27,480 nucleotides of DNA from a virus: positions 1 to 27,480 of IMG/VR virus record IMGVR_UViG_3300035070_002496, one strand, 5' to 3'. Position numbers and translations under genes: made by a program. Below, piece by piece: positions 1,018-27,415 of this stretch; position 1 is the stretch's first letter; every line of letters starts with the position of its first letter. The notes beneath the pieces are model-generated. The model saw nothing but the letters and a program-made list of their open reading frames with translations, was not told where the DNA came from and did not search any database.

Positions 1018-1572
1018 TTATTTATACAGAATATTTGCAACCTTCGTCCAATACTTTTTCGTTGACTCTTTACGATATCCATTAGGACCGCCATTATGAA
1101 TGCGTGCGATATCTTCAAAAGTTACAGGTCGCTTCAATCGATTCTCTGTAGCATATCGATTCATATAAGCGATAACGATTTCGTGAGCATAATCGCAGTT
1201 GAAACAATCATTATAACTCCCACCAATATTGCTAAATTCTGTAGCATCCTGCCAGTAATCTCTCCAGATCTGGTAGCATCCAATCGCCTGCCCGTGATCG
1301 CCAACAGCATCAGGATTACCATTAGACTCAACAATCCGTATAGCAGCATACAAGTCCTCCAGCGTCACTTCATCCACTTTTTCTATGTATGAATCTAACG
1401 TGTCGTTTCTTGTAAAAACTACACCCGCAAGCGGTTTAGGTGGAGTCGTAGTCTCCGCAACGGGTTGTGATCCCAAGTTTCTGGAAACATTGTCAACCAC
1501 ATCCATCACCATATAGGTTCCACACATTGTGAGGGAACCAATCAAAAATAAATTCGACCAATCAACTTTCAT
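1018..1572 (-). CDS. Membrane-anchored lysozyme-like muramidase (endolysin candidate)
   Basis: A 184-residue protein with an N-terminal hydrophobic segment (residues about 8-24), a Pro/Thr-rich linker (about 40-48) and a C-terminal lysozyme-fold domain (about 65-184). Catalytic-type features are AAIRIVESNGNP with candidate Glu82, then GQAIGCYQIWRDYW (95-107), a Cys pair in CFNC (123-126) and IARIHNGGPNG (155-165). The last motif and the YQI...YW pattern resemble i-type (destabilase) lysozymes, which cleave peptidoglycan; a transglycosylase SLT relative is the alternative. The N-terminal anchor would suit export as a signal-anchor endolysin. It overlaps the SprT-like gene by 11 nt. The holin and spanin candidates lie far away near 25200-26200 on the other strand. 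Confidence 0.8.
   Translation of the reverse strand: MKVDWSNLFLIGSLTMCGTYMVMDVVDNVSRNLGSQPVAETTTPPKPLAGVVFTRNDTLDSYIEKVDEVTLEDLYAAIRIVESNGNPDAVGDHGQAIGCYQIWRDYWQDATEFSNIGGSYNDCFNCDYAHEIVIAYMNRYATENRLKRPVTFEDIARIHNGGPNGYRKESTKKYWTKVANILYK
1019..1026 (-). promoter_or_regulatory. T4-type late promoter core TATAAATA
   Basis: An exact TATAAATA reads on the minus strand, overlapping the stop codon of the lysozyme gene. Transcription would start about 6-7 nt downstream, almost at the ATG of 911-1012, so it may mainly serve gene 510-908 and those after it. The match is seen directly; activity is inferred. Confidence 0.4.
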
Positions 1573-4409: not shown

Positions 4410-4652
4410 TCAACATGCAATCTTGGAAATTTGTGGTGGGTTGATCCAAGTGTAGTTCAAACCATTCACAAGGTGGCTGAAATCTTCGAGCGATTGTGGG
4501 TCGGTGAACATCCACGATCGGCGTTGGGTATTCCATCGAGCGAAAGAGGCGATTCGTTTACCACAATGCTGCTCGACGCCATTCTTATCCTTATAGCCAA
4601 TGACGACTTCAAACGCTGGTTTCTCTCCTGGCTGGAGAGAATCCAGCATCAT
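4410..4652 (-). CDS. Hypothetical protein
   Basis: An 80-residue protein with probable beta structure (FEVVIGYKDKNG, RIASFARWNTQRRSWMF) and a short C-terminal part NGLNYTWINPP. The start overlaps the stop of the AAA+ ATPase gene by ATGA, so the two are translated together. It may assist the ATPase. No known family is recognised. Confidence 0.65.
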   Translation of the reverse strand: MMLDSLQPGEKPAFEVVIGYKDKNGVEQHCGKRIASFARWNTQRRSWMFTDPQSLEDFSHLVNGLNYTWINPPQISKIAC

Positions 4653-5947
4653 TCGAAAGGGCAGTCCGAAGACGCACCACCTTCCGATTGGGTTTCACTC
4701 TCGTCTGCCATGACTACTTCGGCATCGATCTTAGTGTAGAGTGAGATGAAACCCTCTTTGGTTTCGTCATCGAATCGGGAAACCGCCATGTTGATCGCGG
4801 TCATTTTGTCTCCGAAGATCGCGTTCGCTTTCACGATGTCGATCAAACGTCGGGTGGTGATGATTTCGTCAACCGCACCTTCGTAGAATGATTTGCGAAT
4901 GGTATCAGCCCACTTGGTGAGGTTGATAGCGAACGCCTCGTCATCGCATCCCAGAGATTTCATCGCCTTGCGGACGATCTTCTTCTCGGTGGATCGCGGA
5001 GCGTACTCCTGTTCCATCGTCACGGGGAATCGGTCCAAGAAGGCTTCGTTCATCGCACCAGTACCGATGAATCGTCCATCGTCGCTACCTTTACCCTTGG
5101 TGTTGGCAGTGGCGAACACGGTGAAACCAGCAGCGGGGGTAATCCACTCGTTGGTTTTCTTAAGGAAGACACCCTTACCTTCGAGAACAGATTGAAGGCA
5201 CATGATACCCAGACCAGCGAGGTCGATTTCATCGAGAAGAAGAACGGCACCACGCTTCATGGCTTCGACCACGGGACCGTAAACAAACTTGGTTTCACCA
5301 TCGATCAAACGGAAACCACCGAGCAGATCATCTTCGTCAGTGGCTTTGGTGATGTTCACGCGGAAACACTCACGACCAGCAGCGGCACACGCTTGCTCGA
5401 TACCAGTGGTCTTACCGTTACCAGAAAGACCAGTAACGAACACAGGGTAGAACATGTTCGAATCGATAATTTTCTTGATCGAATCGAAGTGACCCCAAGG
5501 CACGTAGGTTTTGATTTTGTCGGGAATGAGGGTAGCACGATCACCACCAGTAGCACCCATAATGCTCGCAGCGAGATTCGCGGAAGCGGCAGCAGGCGCG
5601 TTGATAGCGGCGGGGGTAGGTGCATTTGCACCACCCTGCAAACCGATGGTGGATGGGGGAGCGGGCAAGGGGGCAAGTTCTTCGTCAGTGTCACGGACCA
5701 ATTGGGGAACACCTTCGGCGGAGATCAATTCAACCAGTTCGGGAAGATCATATTCGCCACGCATGTCCAAAGCACGACCAGAATCTTGAGTGATCCAAGA
5801 CGGGGGGCAAGCGTAGATGCCCGAAGCATCACAAACGGACTTCAATTCCTGACGGGAAACGACAGGACCACGCACACCGTGAGCGGCGAGGGCGCGGACG
5901 AATTTGGATTGACGGGCGGACAAGTTACGAAGTTTAAAAGTAGTCAT
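4649..5947 (-). CDS. MoxR/CobS-like AAA+ ATPase
   Basis: A 432-residue ATPase. Residues 1-72 form a small N-terminal domain shared with gene 3528-3821. An Ala/Pro-rich linker follows (about 90-130). The AAA+ core has Walker A GLSGNGKTT (173-181), Walker B LLLDE (236-240), sensor-1 FATANT (278-283) and a likely arginine finger in FLDRFP (R306). The order and spacing match MoxR/CobS-type ATPases, which remodel targets together with a VWA-domain partner. CobS-like genes are well known in T4-like cyanophages, where a metabolic (cobalamin) role has been discussed. Here the divergently transcribed partner at 6219-8393 is a CobT-like VWA protein, so a two-component chaperone is the best reading. The target is unknown. 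Confidence 0.85.
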   Translation of the reverse strand: MTTFKLRNLSARQSKFVRALAAHGVRGPVVSRQELKSVCDASGIYACPPSWITQDSGRALDMRGEYDLPELVELISAEGVPQLVRDTDEELAPLPAPPSTIGLQGGANAPTPAAINAPAAASANLAASIMGATGGDRATLIPDKIKTYVPWGHFDSIKKIIDSNMFYPVFVTGLSGNGKTTGIEQACAAAGRECFRVNITKATDEDDLLGGFRLIDGETKFVYGPVVEAMKRGAVLLLDEIDLAGLGIMCLQSVLEGKGVFLKKTNEWITPAAGFTVFATANTKGKGSDDGRFIGTGAMNEAFLDRFPVTMEQEYAPRSTEKKIVRKAMKSLGCDDEAFAINLTKWADTIRKSFYEGAVDEIITTRRLIDIVKANAIFGDKMTAINMAVSRFDDETKEGFISLYTKIDAEVVMADESETQSEGGASSDCPFE

Positions 5948-25202: not shown

Positions 25203-25649
25203 ATGGATTTTTTATCACCTGATTTTTTATCACTACTGACTGGTTCCGCGACTGGTTTCTTATTTAAAGCGATGGCTGAACGTCGTGCGCAGGATCAAGA
25301 ACGATTCAAGATGGCGATGGGAGTCGCAGAAAAAGAAAACGAACATGCTGATGCTGCCGTGAGTCGTGTCTCAATTGACGCAGGTAAACTGGTTCGTCGG
25401 TTTATTGTGCTTTGTATCATGTTTGGTACAATCCTTGCACCATTCATCATCGCTTACAGCGACGGTGTTACCACCGTGGTTGAGCATGAGTCCACAGTCT
25501 ATAAGCCATGGGACTTGCTCGGTTTGTTCGGTGAAGAGAAAGTAAGAACATACACTCCTGTAGAAGGCTACCTATACACTGAAGAGAATAGGCAGATTCT
25601 TGTTACGATTGTTGGATTCTACTTCGGAACCGCAGTCAGAGGTAAATAA
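25203..25649 (+). CDS. Membrane protein, holin-like candidate (148 aa)
   Basis: A 148-residue protein with a short N-terminal hydrophobic segment (FLSLLTGSATGFLF), a charged helical stretch (residues about 25-60), a clear membrane helix (IVLCIMFGTILAPFIIAY, about 69-86), a loop, and a C-terminal hydrophobic helix (ILVTIVGFYFGTAV). Two or three membrane segments directly before two small envelope genes would fit a holin or other lysis membrane protein. No family-specific motif is recognised. GGGAG lies before the start. Confidence 0.6.
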   Translation: MDFLSPDFLSLLTGSATGFLFKAMAERRAQDQERFKMAMGVAEKENEHADAAVSRVSIDAGKLVRRFIVLCIMFGTILAPFIIAYSDGVTTVVEHESTVYKPWDLLGLFGEEKVRTYTPVEGYLYTEENRQILVTIVGFYFGTAVRGK

Positions 25650-25676: not shown

Positions 25677-25889
25677 ATGAACAACAATGTAGTTTTAAAA
25701 AGAATTTGTATCTTCTTTTTGGGTTTAGGAATCGGTTTAGTCGCAGGACATAAACACGGTGTCTCTGAAATGAAAGAACGTTTCCATAATAGAGTGATGA
25801 AGAAAGCAGAAAAGCCTGTGCAACGAAATAGAGTACCAGAACCACGGGGTAAAACTTTCTTTGAAAAGAAACAGCGTGTCCCCCGATGA
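25677..25889 (+). CDS. Small single-pass membrane protein, inner-membrane spanin-like
   Basis: A 70-residue protein with one N-terminal membrane helix (ICIFFLGLGIGLVAGH, residues about 10-25) followed by a basic, partly helical tail (SEMKERFHNRVMKKAEKP). Its stop overlaps the start of the lipoprotein gene (ATGA). A membrane protein directly followed by a lipoprotein is the typical Rz/Rz1 order. The tail is short for an i-spanin, so it could instead be a small holin or accessory. Confidence 0.55.
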   Translation: MNNNVVLKRICIFFLGLGIGLVAGHKHGVSEMKERFHNRVMKKAEKPVQRNRVPEPRGKTFFEKKQRVPR

Positions 25890-26134
25890 GATATCTTTTC
25901 GTTATGTTGTTGGTGGGTTGTGCAGGCGTCAAGAGTGTGAGGGATGAACCCTTCATTGACATTGATATTGACGGACAACCACGAATAGTTCACACACTCG
26001 AATCTGCAAGTCAAATAGAAACACCTGACCTTATTGGTGCTGGTGATGCTCTTGGTGTTGACACAATGTATCGCATGGAGGAAGATGCGTTAAAAAAAGG
26101 GTTAACCCCTACTATGTTATACTCGCAGTATTAA
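25886..26134 (+). CDS. Lipoprotein, outer-membrane spanin candidate (0-frame product)
   Basis: An 82-residue product starting MRYLFVMLLVGCAGVKS: a short hydrophobic signal ending in the lipobox LVGC (Cys12), so it is predicted to be lipidated. The mature part is acidic, then MYRMEEDALKK near codons 61-71. At codons 69-71 (TTA AAA AAA) there is a slippery A7 run, with GGAGG 10 nt upstream of it; slipping -1 there adds a membrane helix (see 25886-26205). Lipoproteins of this size next to a small membrane protein are typical outer-membrane spanins. The short 0-frame tail (GLTPTMLYSQY) has no features. Confidence 0.65.
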   Translation: MRYLFVMLLVGCAGVKSVRDEPFIDIDIDGQPRIVHTLESASQIETPDLIGAGDALGVDTMYRMEEDALKKGLTPTMLYSQY

Positions 26135-26205
26135 TAGCAGGGGGAATGTATTATTACGAGTTTAAGTATCAGATGCGTCGGGCGCGTTCGCGTGAGACAA
26201 AGTAG
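25886..26205 (+). CDS. Possible frameshift product: lipoprotein with C-terminal membrane helix (u-spanin-like)
   Basis: If translation slips by -1 at the heptamer A-AAA-AAA (26092-26098), reading continues for 35 codons to a TAG at 26203-26205. The added part is RVNPYYVILAVLIAGG followed by MYYYEFKYQMRRARSRETK: a membrane helix with a basic end, in the -1 frame, with no start codon before the helix. The 106-residue product would have an N-terminal lipobox and a C-terminal membrane helix, the architecture of unimolecular spanins such as T1 gp11. GGAGG (26077-26081) lies 10 nt before the slippery run, as in dnaX. An undercounted A in the run would also explain it. Confidence 0.5.
26077..26101 (+). 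promoter_or_regulatory. Programmed -1 frameshift signal candidate
   Basis: Shine-Dalgarno-like GGAGG (26077-26081), a 10-nt spacer, the slippery run of seven A in frame as A-AAA-AAA (26092-26098), then GGG. The short palindrome GGGTTAACCC follows at once (26099-26108) but gives at most a 3-bp stem. Confidence 0.5.
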
Positions 26206-26752
26206 TATAAAGATACTTACAGATATAATAAGAATCTACAATATCTGAAACAGGATTAGAGACTGACTTAGACGATGGTGTTATAAGAGACATCAAGTCA
26301 ACGTCAGTTTCTTTTTTAAACGCCTCATACATCGCATCTTTATTCGCGTTACCCTTACCAGTCGCAAACTTTTTGATTTGACTTGGTGGTGTCACGCTTA
26401 ACGGTAACCTCTTCTGCCATATTTTAAACTTCAACACACCAGTATTCTCAGCGATCTGAAATAATCGATTACTATTTGATGAGTAAGCGTAACCCTCCAG
26501 ACATACATGATCTACTGGTAGAATCTTTTCCATAGCCCAGTCTGATATAGAATCATATCTCTCTGAGTCGTCCATGAATATTTGAAAACTATCCCCTGCG
26601 ATGTTTGCTCCATACATCCGTGCGTGTTTCTTTGTGTTGGTCAAAAAGTAAAACATACACTGTTGGAAACTAAAAGTTTTATTATAGTCACCCGCGAAAA
26701 TACAAATCGCTGGACCACGGAGACTATAATCTATTCCTGCAAGGTTCATCAT
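26162..26752 (-). CDS. RuvC-like Holliday junction resolvase
   Basis: A 196-residue RNase H-fold nuclease. Acidic residues expected for RuvC are present: Asp8 in AGIDYSLRGPAI, Glu86 in HVCLEGYAYSSNSNRLFQIAE (83-102), and Asp170/Asp173 in VSDIVDSYYICKY (168-180). The VTPPSQIKKFATGKGNANKD segment (120-139) matches the RuvC motif with Lys before the catalytic C-terminal helix. In T4-like phages it would resolve branched DNA before packaging. ATGATG forms the start, a CATAAATA box lies just upstream, and no clear ribosome-binding site is visible. Its 3' end overlaps the putative frameshift extension on the other strand by 44 nt. Confidence 0.85.
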   Translation of the reverse strand: MMNLAGIDYSLRGPAICIFAGDYNKTFSFQQCMFYFLTNTKKHARMYGANIAGDSFQIFMDDSERYDSISDWAMEKILPVDHVCLEGYAYSSNSNRLFQIAENTGVLKFKIWQKRLPLSVTPPSQIKKFATGKGNANKDAMYEAFKKETDVDLMSLITPSSKSVSNPVSDIVDSYYICKYLYTTLSHANAPDASDT

Positions 26753-26776: not shown

Positions 26777-27415
26777 TTATCCTTTCTCGAAAGAGAACGA
26801 TTGTCGTAGACGACTTGAAACAGAGCGACCTTGAACCTTAGCAGGCTCAAACTTCCACTGCTTGATTGCAGCAAGAGCAGAGCGGTCGAAAGATGGATTC
26901 GTGGTGCGTTGGACTTTCGGATCTTGCACCCGACCACTTTCATCAACAATAAAGATTACGACCACGGTTGCAGGTGCTTGACGTAACAAGGTAGAAGTTA
27001 GACGAGGCTGCACTACGCTCAACCGACGAGCCTTCTGATCAAGTTCTGACGAAGAGAAGATTTCATTCATTTCCTCACTACTGGACATAGCACTTTGCAA
27101 CTGGACACCGAAATCACCACTCAAAAAATCTCCAAAGCCAGGATTTAGCATAACTTCTAACTGACTTATATCAAGTGGTTCAGGAGTAGAATCCATTTTT
27201 GGTGGATCTGGTTCAGGTTCTGGTTCAGGGTCATCGGGTTCATCCATCGGAGGCGGTGGAGGTGGTGGAACGCTGACGATTTCCATCGTTCGTGCCACGG
27301 AATCACCTTGGAACGGAGAGTTGATTGCTTGAAGCAAAGGCAATAGCATAAAGAAGAATGCTGTGCATCCCAATCCAAGAACGAAAGCAACAAATGTTCT
27401 GATTAGCCTTCGCAT
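26777..27415 (-). CDS. TonB-like periplasmic-spanning protein
   Basis: A 212-residue protein with the order of TonB: an N-terminal membrane helix (FVAFVLGLGCTAFFFMLLPLL, residues about 8-28), a proline-rich region (PPPPPPPMDEPDDPEPEPEP, about 50-69), a linker and a C-terminal TonB domain (about 136-212). The last contains ATVVVIFIVDESGRVQDPKV and FDRSALAAIKQWKFEPAKV, matching the strand-helix-W-x-F/F-x-P pattern of the family. In bacteria TonB energises outer-membrane receptors with ExbB/ExbD. A copy in a phage genome is unusual. Its start overlaps the end of the upstream EF-hand-like gene by 13 nt, so the two are coupled. Confidence 0.8.
   Translation of the reverse strand: MRRLIRTFVAFVLGLGCTAFFFMLLPLLQAINSPFQGDSVARTMEIVSVPPPPPPPMDEPDDPEPEPEPDPPKMDSTPEPLDISQLEVMLNPGFGDFLSGDFGVQLQSAMSSSEEMNEIFSSSELDQKARRLSVVQPRLTSTLLRQAPATVVVIFIVDESGRVQDPKVQRTTNPSFDRSALAAIKQWKFEPAKVQGRSVSSRLRQSFSFEKG

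Follow-up and report, generated by a model that had tools for sequence, protein, structure and literature searches.

One catalogue of spanins lists 528 two-component and 58 unimolecular spanins (u-spanins), the latter falling into 13 families with six singletons, and family similarity is not a defining feature of them (PMC6139136). None of the 58 u-spanins has a periplasmic cysteine. That u-spanins arose from o-spanins through extension at the C terminus was considered speculative there, because no u-spanin resembled any o-spanin. The same work reports no frameshifted spanin, its sole mention of frameshift concerning the relative frames of nested genes, and we found no spanin made by programmed frameshifting in the open-access literature that was searched, where the papers retrieved for spanins with ribosomal frameshifting concern other genes, judged by title and abstract.

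We describe a locus from a phage of a lineage described as marine. The window, that is the whole stretch of DNA that was analysed, comprises 27,480 bases of an IMG/VR virus record. It probably holds a unimolecular-spanin-like gene that is interrupted by a programmed -1 frameshift and would also yield a shorter lipoprotein lacking the membrane helix. Gene callers that ignore frameshifting would annotate only the o-spanin-like lipoprotein and miss the membrane anchor.

Layout of the locus and its recoding elements

Features of the locus are collected in Table 1. The lipoprotein gene, whose translation begins MRYLFVMLLVGCAGV..., has no Shine-Dalgarno (SD) sequence of its own in the window; at gene starts in this phage SD sequences were found for 21 of 35 genes, against 15% of random positions. 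Translational coupling to the upstream gene is likely, given the 4-nt overlap of the two genes and the lack of an SD at the lipoprotein start.

Table 1. Features of the spanin-like locus in window coordinates
Feature	Coordinates	Strand	Description
Holin-like membrane protein, 148 aa	25203..25649	+	phrog_38283 (unknown function), E 1.7e-18; hydropathy peak 64-85
70-aa protein	25677..25889	+	N-terminal membrane helix, basic C-terminal part; putative i-spanin-like layout; 4-nt overlap (ATGA) with lipoprotein gene
0-frame lipoprotein, 82 aa	25886..26134	+	ORF; lipobox LVGC, residues 9-12, Cys12 at 25919-25921
Internal SD-like GGAGG	26077..26081	+	Exactly 10 nt ahead of slippery run
Slippery heptamer A_AAA_AAA	26092..26098	+	Last base of codon 69 and codons 70-71 (TTA AAA AAA)
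-1 frame extension	26098..26205	+	35 codons and TAG: RVNPYYVILAVLIAGGMYYYEFKYQMRRARSRETK; stop at 26203-26205
Predicted C-terminal membrane helix	26101..26157	+	Hydropathy; fused residues 73-91, then basic tail
Hairpin	26106..26143	+	-13.5 kcal/mol (60-nt window -15.7); begins 7 nt past slippery run

A sequence-only reading had proposed a -1 frameshift at an in-frame run of seven A residues (A7) in codons 69-71, with GGAGG at the spacing known from E. coli dnaX, and both elements are present as it described. Its account of the extension, 35 codons encoding a helix with a basic end and no prior start codon, was likewise exact: the -1 frame has no ATG, GTG or TTG codon ahead of the helix, the only ones (offsets 260 and 287) lying within the helix or past it. 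The hairpin was missed by that reading; its presence besides the SD-like site and the A run means that all three dnaX-type elements are in place. The fused product has 106 residues, about 61 of them predicted to be periplasmic. The mean Kyte-Doolittle hydropathy of the helix is 1.17 in the window and its near-copy L002 and 1.8-2.9 in the other relatives described below.

In-frame A_AAA_AAR alone is not rare, occurring eight times in the plus-strand genes of the window. The genes of the window contain 26 slippery heptamers in frame, of which only that at 26092 is combined with an SD-like site, a hairpin and an open -1 extension encoding a helix. Counting against frameshifting, E. coli ribosomes slip less on A_AAA_AAA than on A_AAA_AAG (PMC5009743).

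The end of the -1 extension overlaps a RuvC-like resolvase gene (26162-26752, minus strand) tail to tail by 44 nt. Also on the minus strand are a gene for a TonB-type protein (26777-27415; TonB_C, E 4.8e-13) with an N-terminal helix and a proline-rich linker, near the phage contig end, and an ATPase gene (4649-5947) matching phrog_249, annotated as porphyrin biosynthesis (CobS-like), at E 4.1e-108.

Close relatives and uninterrupted homologues

Searches of IMG/VR yielded, with the window, 23 copies of the gene representing 18 distinct sequences (the window clade), whose fused products range down to 46% identity to that of the window; one further, more divergent relative, L081, is counted apart. 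All 18 have a lipobox, a stop in the 0 frame, an A run in the phase of the window's, and a -1 frame helix followed by a positively charged tail; the G-A-G-D motif of the 0-frame part is also conserved, and L081 keeps the -1 layout too. The homologue check that had been suggested, persistence of the slippery run and the -1 helix, thus held in every close relative found. An assembly or sequencing indel is ruled out, because 18 distinct sequences and L081 share the layout.

The A run is A7 in 16 sequences, each with an SD-like site and a hairpin, and A9 in three (L005, L023 and L081). It has the in-frame form X_XXY_YYZ, in identical phase throughout the window clade. SD-like sites and hairpins were scored by the rules of PMC4066793, which for hairpins ask for a start 4-10 nt downstream and a stability of at least 7.6 kcal/mol. 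SD-like sites were found at spacings of 10-14 in 16/16 A7 sequences, and hairpins, with differing stem sequences, at offsets of 5-7 nt and energies of -13.5 to -23.8 kcal/mol, again in all 16. In the 13 A7 sequences folded against shuffled controls, the hairpin regions gave z-scores of -1.8 to -5.1; within their own loci such regions rank among the most stable 0.2-10% of 60-nt windows. Stem changes within class 2 of the relatives agree with the hairpin, if weakly, one pair being changed on both sides and several on one side only. Given this weak covariation, the case for the structure comes from folding energy and position. By eye, the SD-like sequence before the A run at 4872 of L010 was seen to lie inside a self-complementary stretch (GAGGATTTTGAATCCTC), a possible upstream hairpin; similar stretches with an SD occur at similar positions in L008 and L020 and are absent from the window.

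Codon usage at the slip site is constrained. The codons NNA-AAA-AAA are invariant in the 16 A7 sequences, the residue before the two lysines being leucine or serine. Both slip-site lysines are always AAA in these sequences, a codon used for just 59% of the lysines in the window; at the 17 other fully conserved 0-frame residues the codon varies in 15 cases. Past the 0-frame stop, dN/dS of the -1 frame is 0.33 in class 2 and 0.36 in class 3, the lowest of the three frames in both. For class 1 (three sequences, including the window) the value of 0.73 comes from few sites and is not that of the lowest frame.

The holin-like gene is the constant upstream neighbor of the lipoprotein gene in all relatives. 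More distant loci were chosen by their phrog_38283 gene and the next gene was read; many of these loci are near-copies of one another. In 63 of 68 further holin-linked loci that gene runs as one reading frame through lipoprotein and C-terminal helix; two others are cut by a contig end, two are ambiguous, and the fifth is L081, which needs a -1 shift at A9. Loci L024-L042 are likewise in-frame. L068, L092, L096 and L099 share G-A-G-D with the 0-frame part of the window's gene and continue into the helix without a change of frame. When only the -1 extensions were used to build a profile, it matched the helices of these four loci and of in-frame L102 at 16.2-18.8 bits, against a best score of 11.8 bits among 2800 control sequences with the C-terminal 35 residues shuffled. 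Both halves of the split gene thus match one continuous protein.

In a tree of the holin-like protein the frameshifting phages, L081 included, group in one clade (99/93); its sister is in-frame L068, and both sit within a set of in-frame lineages. The branch to L081 is long, and the bootstrap is not fully settled. From this position the frameshift looks to be derived from an unbroken gene. The sister lineages, which produce this anchored protein from a single-frame gene, argue strongly by comparison for a real -1 product, and they make the slip look like a genuine control point under selection. It is very likely that the frameshift occurs and serves a function.

Translation would start at 25886, where the ATGA overlap most likely couples it to the upstream gene. 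On reaching A_AAA_AAA, ribosomes would be stalled by the SD inside the gene and by the hairpin beyond the run, and a fraction would slip back by one base and make the 106-aa protein, with an outer-membrane lipid anchor, a periplasmic part, an inner-membrane helix and a basic cytoplasmic tail. At lysis such a protein would join the two membranes or bring about their fusion. Ribosomes that do not slip would stop at 26134, leaving the 82-aa lipoprotein without helix. With one fraction slipping and the rest stopping there, the efficiency of slippage would decide how much full-length spanin is made and in what ratio the two lipoproteins stand, whatever role the short form may have.

Searches outside these loci gave little. 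Phage C75C1 and Verrucomicrobia phage P8625 have distant holin-like genes, with no frameshifting lipoprotein seen in the stretches read; a tblastn search of GenBank phages gave no real match, and GTDB genome contigs gave none.

Nature of the products and the route to the long form

The long product is probably a u-spanin-type protein. It has the architecture that the sequence-only reading assigned to it, an N-terminal lipobox with a C-terminal helix that occurs only in the -1 product, and cysteine is absent from the predicted periplasmic part in all 18 lipoproteins and fused products. No significant match to known spanin families was found with the protein, while T1 gp11, the control, matched its own family; neither the protein nor the region had an informative match in Pfam, PHROGs, PDB sequences or Rfam. 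Lacking similarity to known spanins, the assignment draws on architecture and context. In L028 the gene order is tail spike, holin-like gene, lipoprotein-helix gene, TerS-like gene and T7-type TerL gene. T7-like phages carry lysis genes at such a place.

The protein might instead be a genuine lipoprotein with a helix that is not a spanin, such as a lysis regulator or antiholin retained in the inner membrane. The absence of similarity to known spanins would fit such a role, as would the short periplasmic parts of several in-frame relatives, whose 31-37 residues are short for crossing an intact periplasm. Serine or alanine after the lipobox, the architecture shared with T1 gp11, the adjoining holin-like gene and the T7-like packaging cassette of L028 speak for a spanin, and we regard the non-spanin role as unlikely.

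No Pfam family matched the holin-like protein, which is a putative holin. In almost every locus examined (25203-25649 in the window; L024-L153), phrog_38283 is followed by a lipoprotein gene with a C-terminal helix, with at least 470 loci confirmed among the first 599 candidates, and the pair is a candidate for a large unannotated holin/u-spanin lysis module. A gene that by eye resembles staphylococcal nuclease lies between the holin-like and spanin genes in L006, L011, L012, L015, L017, L020 and L068 and is missing from others, including the window, a pattern of recurrent insertion or loss. The window also has a Destabilase/SLT lysozyme-like gene (1018-1572, minus strand; PF05497, E 4.7e-14), a possible endolysin.

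The sequence-only reading held that one gene could make two spanin forms. The long form has u-spanin architecture, so that part stood; the short form fared less well as an o-spanin, its natural partner being without the expected cysteine and absent from one frameshifting lineage. That partner would be the 70-aa protein, and the pair of them would act as a two-component spanin while the -1 product acts as a u-spanin, giving one locus two systems of outer-membrane disruption. Like the genes of overlapped spanin pairs, the 70-aa gene and the lipoprotein gene overlap, by 4 nt in all 18 window-clade loci, and in-frame L068, the sister, has no such upstream gene. L081/L155 lack it as well and frameshift without it, so the strict tie between frameshifting and this membrane gene that was at first suspected does not hold. 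Beyond its helix the upstream protein has no cysteine in 17 of 18 cases, unlike the two-component spanins of PMC6139136, and the 0-frame tail after the slip site varies from 1 to 14 residues. The C-terminal part of the upstream protein is strongly basic (+4 to +11), which hints at a cytoplasmic side for it. We consider a two-component spanin with the 70-aa protein possible and do not favor it; two dedicated systems at one locus seem improbable. It is equally doubtful that the lineage is a living link between the kinds of spanin, with the u-spanin ancestral and the frameshift fixing the ratio of u-spanin to an o-spanin that works with the upstream protein. With both architectures coming from one gene, and with the in-frame version in related phages, the relation of o-spanins to u-spanins becomes testable here.

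A programmed ribosomal slip remains the preferred route to the long form. Alternatively, RNA polymerase could insert an A at the run. Polymerase slips more readily on long A runs, and transcriptional slippage is a reasonable alternative in L005 and L023, where an A9 run occurs with ordinary folding and no SD-like site; in L081 the A9 run is accompanied by just AGGA at 8 nt. These three, which do not display the full SD-hairpin set, may use it. The run is no longer than A7 in the window and in 15 further distinct sequences, all of which conserve an SD-like site and a hairpin spaced as for ribosomal frameshifting, and SD sequences have no known role in polymerase slippage, which makes this route quite unlikely for the gene in general. 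Translation of the helix by independent or coupled re-initiation, for which class 2 relatives offer a GTG directly ahead of the helix, is highly improbable, there being no start codon before the helix in the window or in other class 1 and class 3 relatives, and one continuous protein in the in-frame relatives.

Comparison with known systems

As a two-gene arrangement the locus resembles the overlapped two-component spanins of phage P2, in which a membrane-helix gene overlaps a lipoprotein gene by a few bases. It differs from them in lacking a post-helix cysteine, in the very basic C-terminal part of the membrane protein, in the absence of that protein from L081/L155 and in having a u-spanin-type product as well.

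As a signal it resembles that of E. coli dnaX, with an internal SD 10 nt upstream of an A-run heptamer and a stem-loop downstream. The heptamer here is A_AAA_AAA rather than A_AAA_AAG, and the slip adds a membrane anchor, whereas in dnaX it truncates the protein. In Thermus thermophilus, dnaX is expressed by transcriptional slippage at an A9 run; L005, L023 and L081 resemble that gene in their A9 runs, and the window differs from it in combining A7 with an SD-like site and a hairpin.

As a protein the long form is most like T1 gp11 (phrog_1804), the archetype of u-spanins, with which it shares a lipobox, a cysteine-free periplasmic segment, a C-terminal helix, a basic tail and a lysis-gene context. 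Sequence similarity between T1 gp11 and the window protein is not detectable. T1 gp11 is encoded as 133 aa in one frame; here the predicted periplasmic part is shorter and the helix is reached in the -1 frame.
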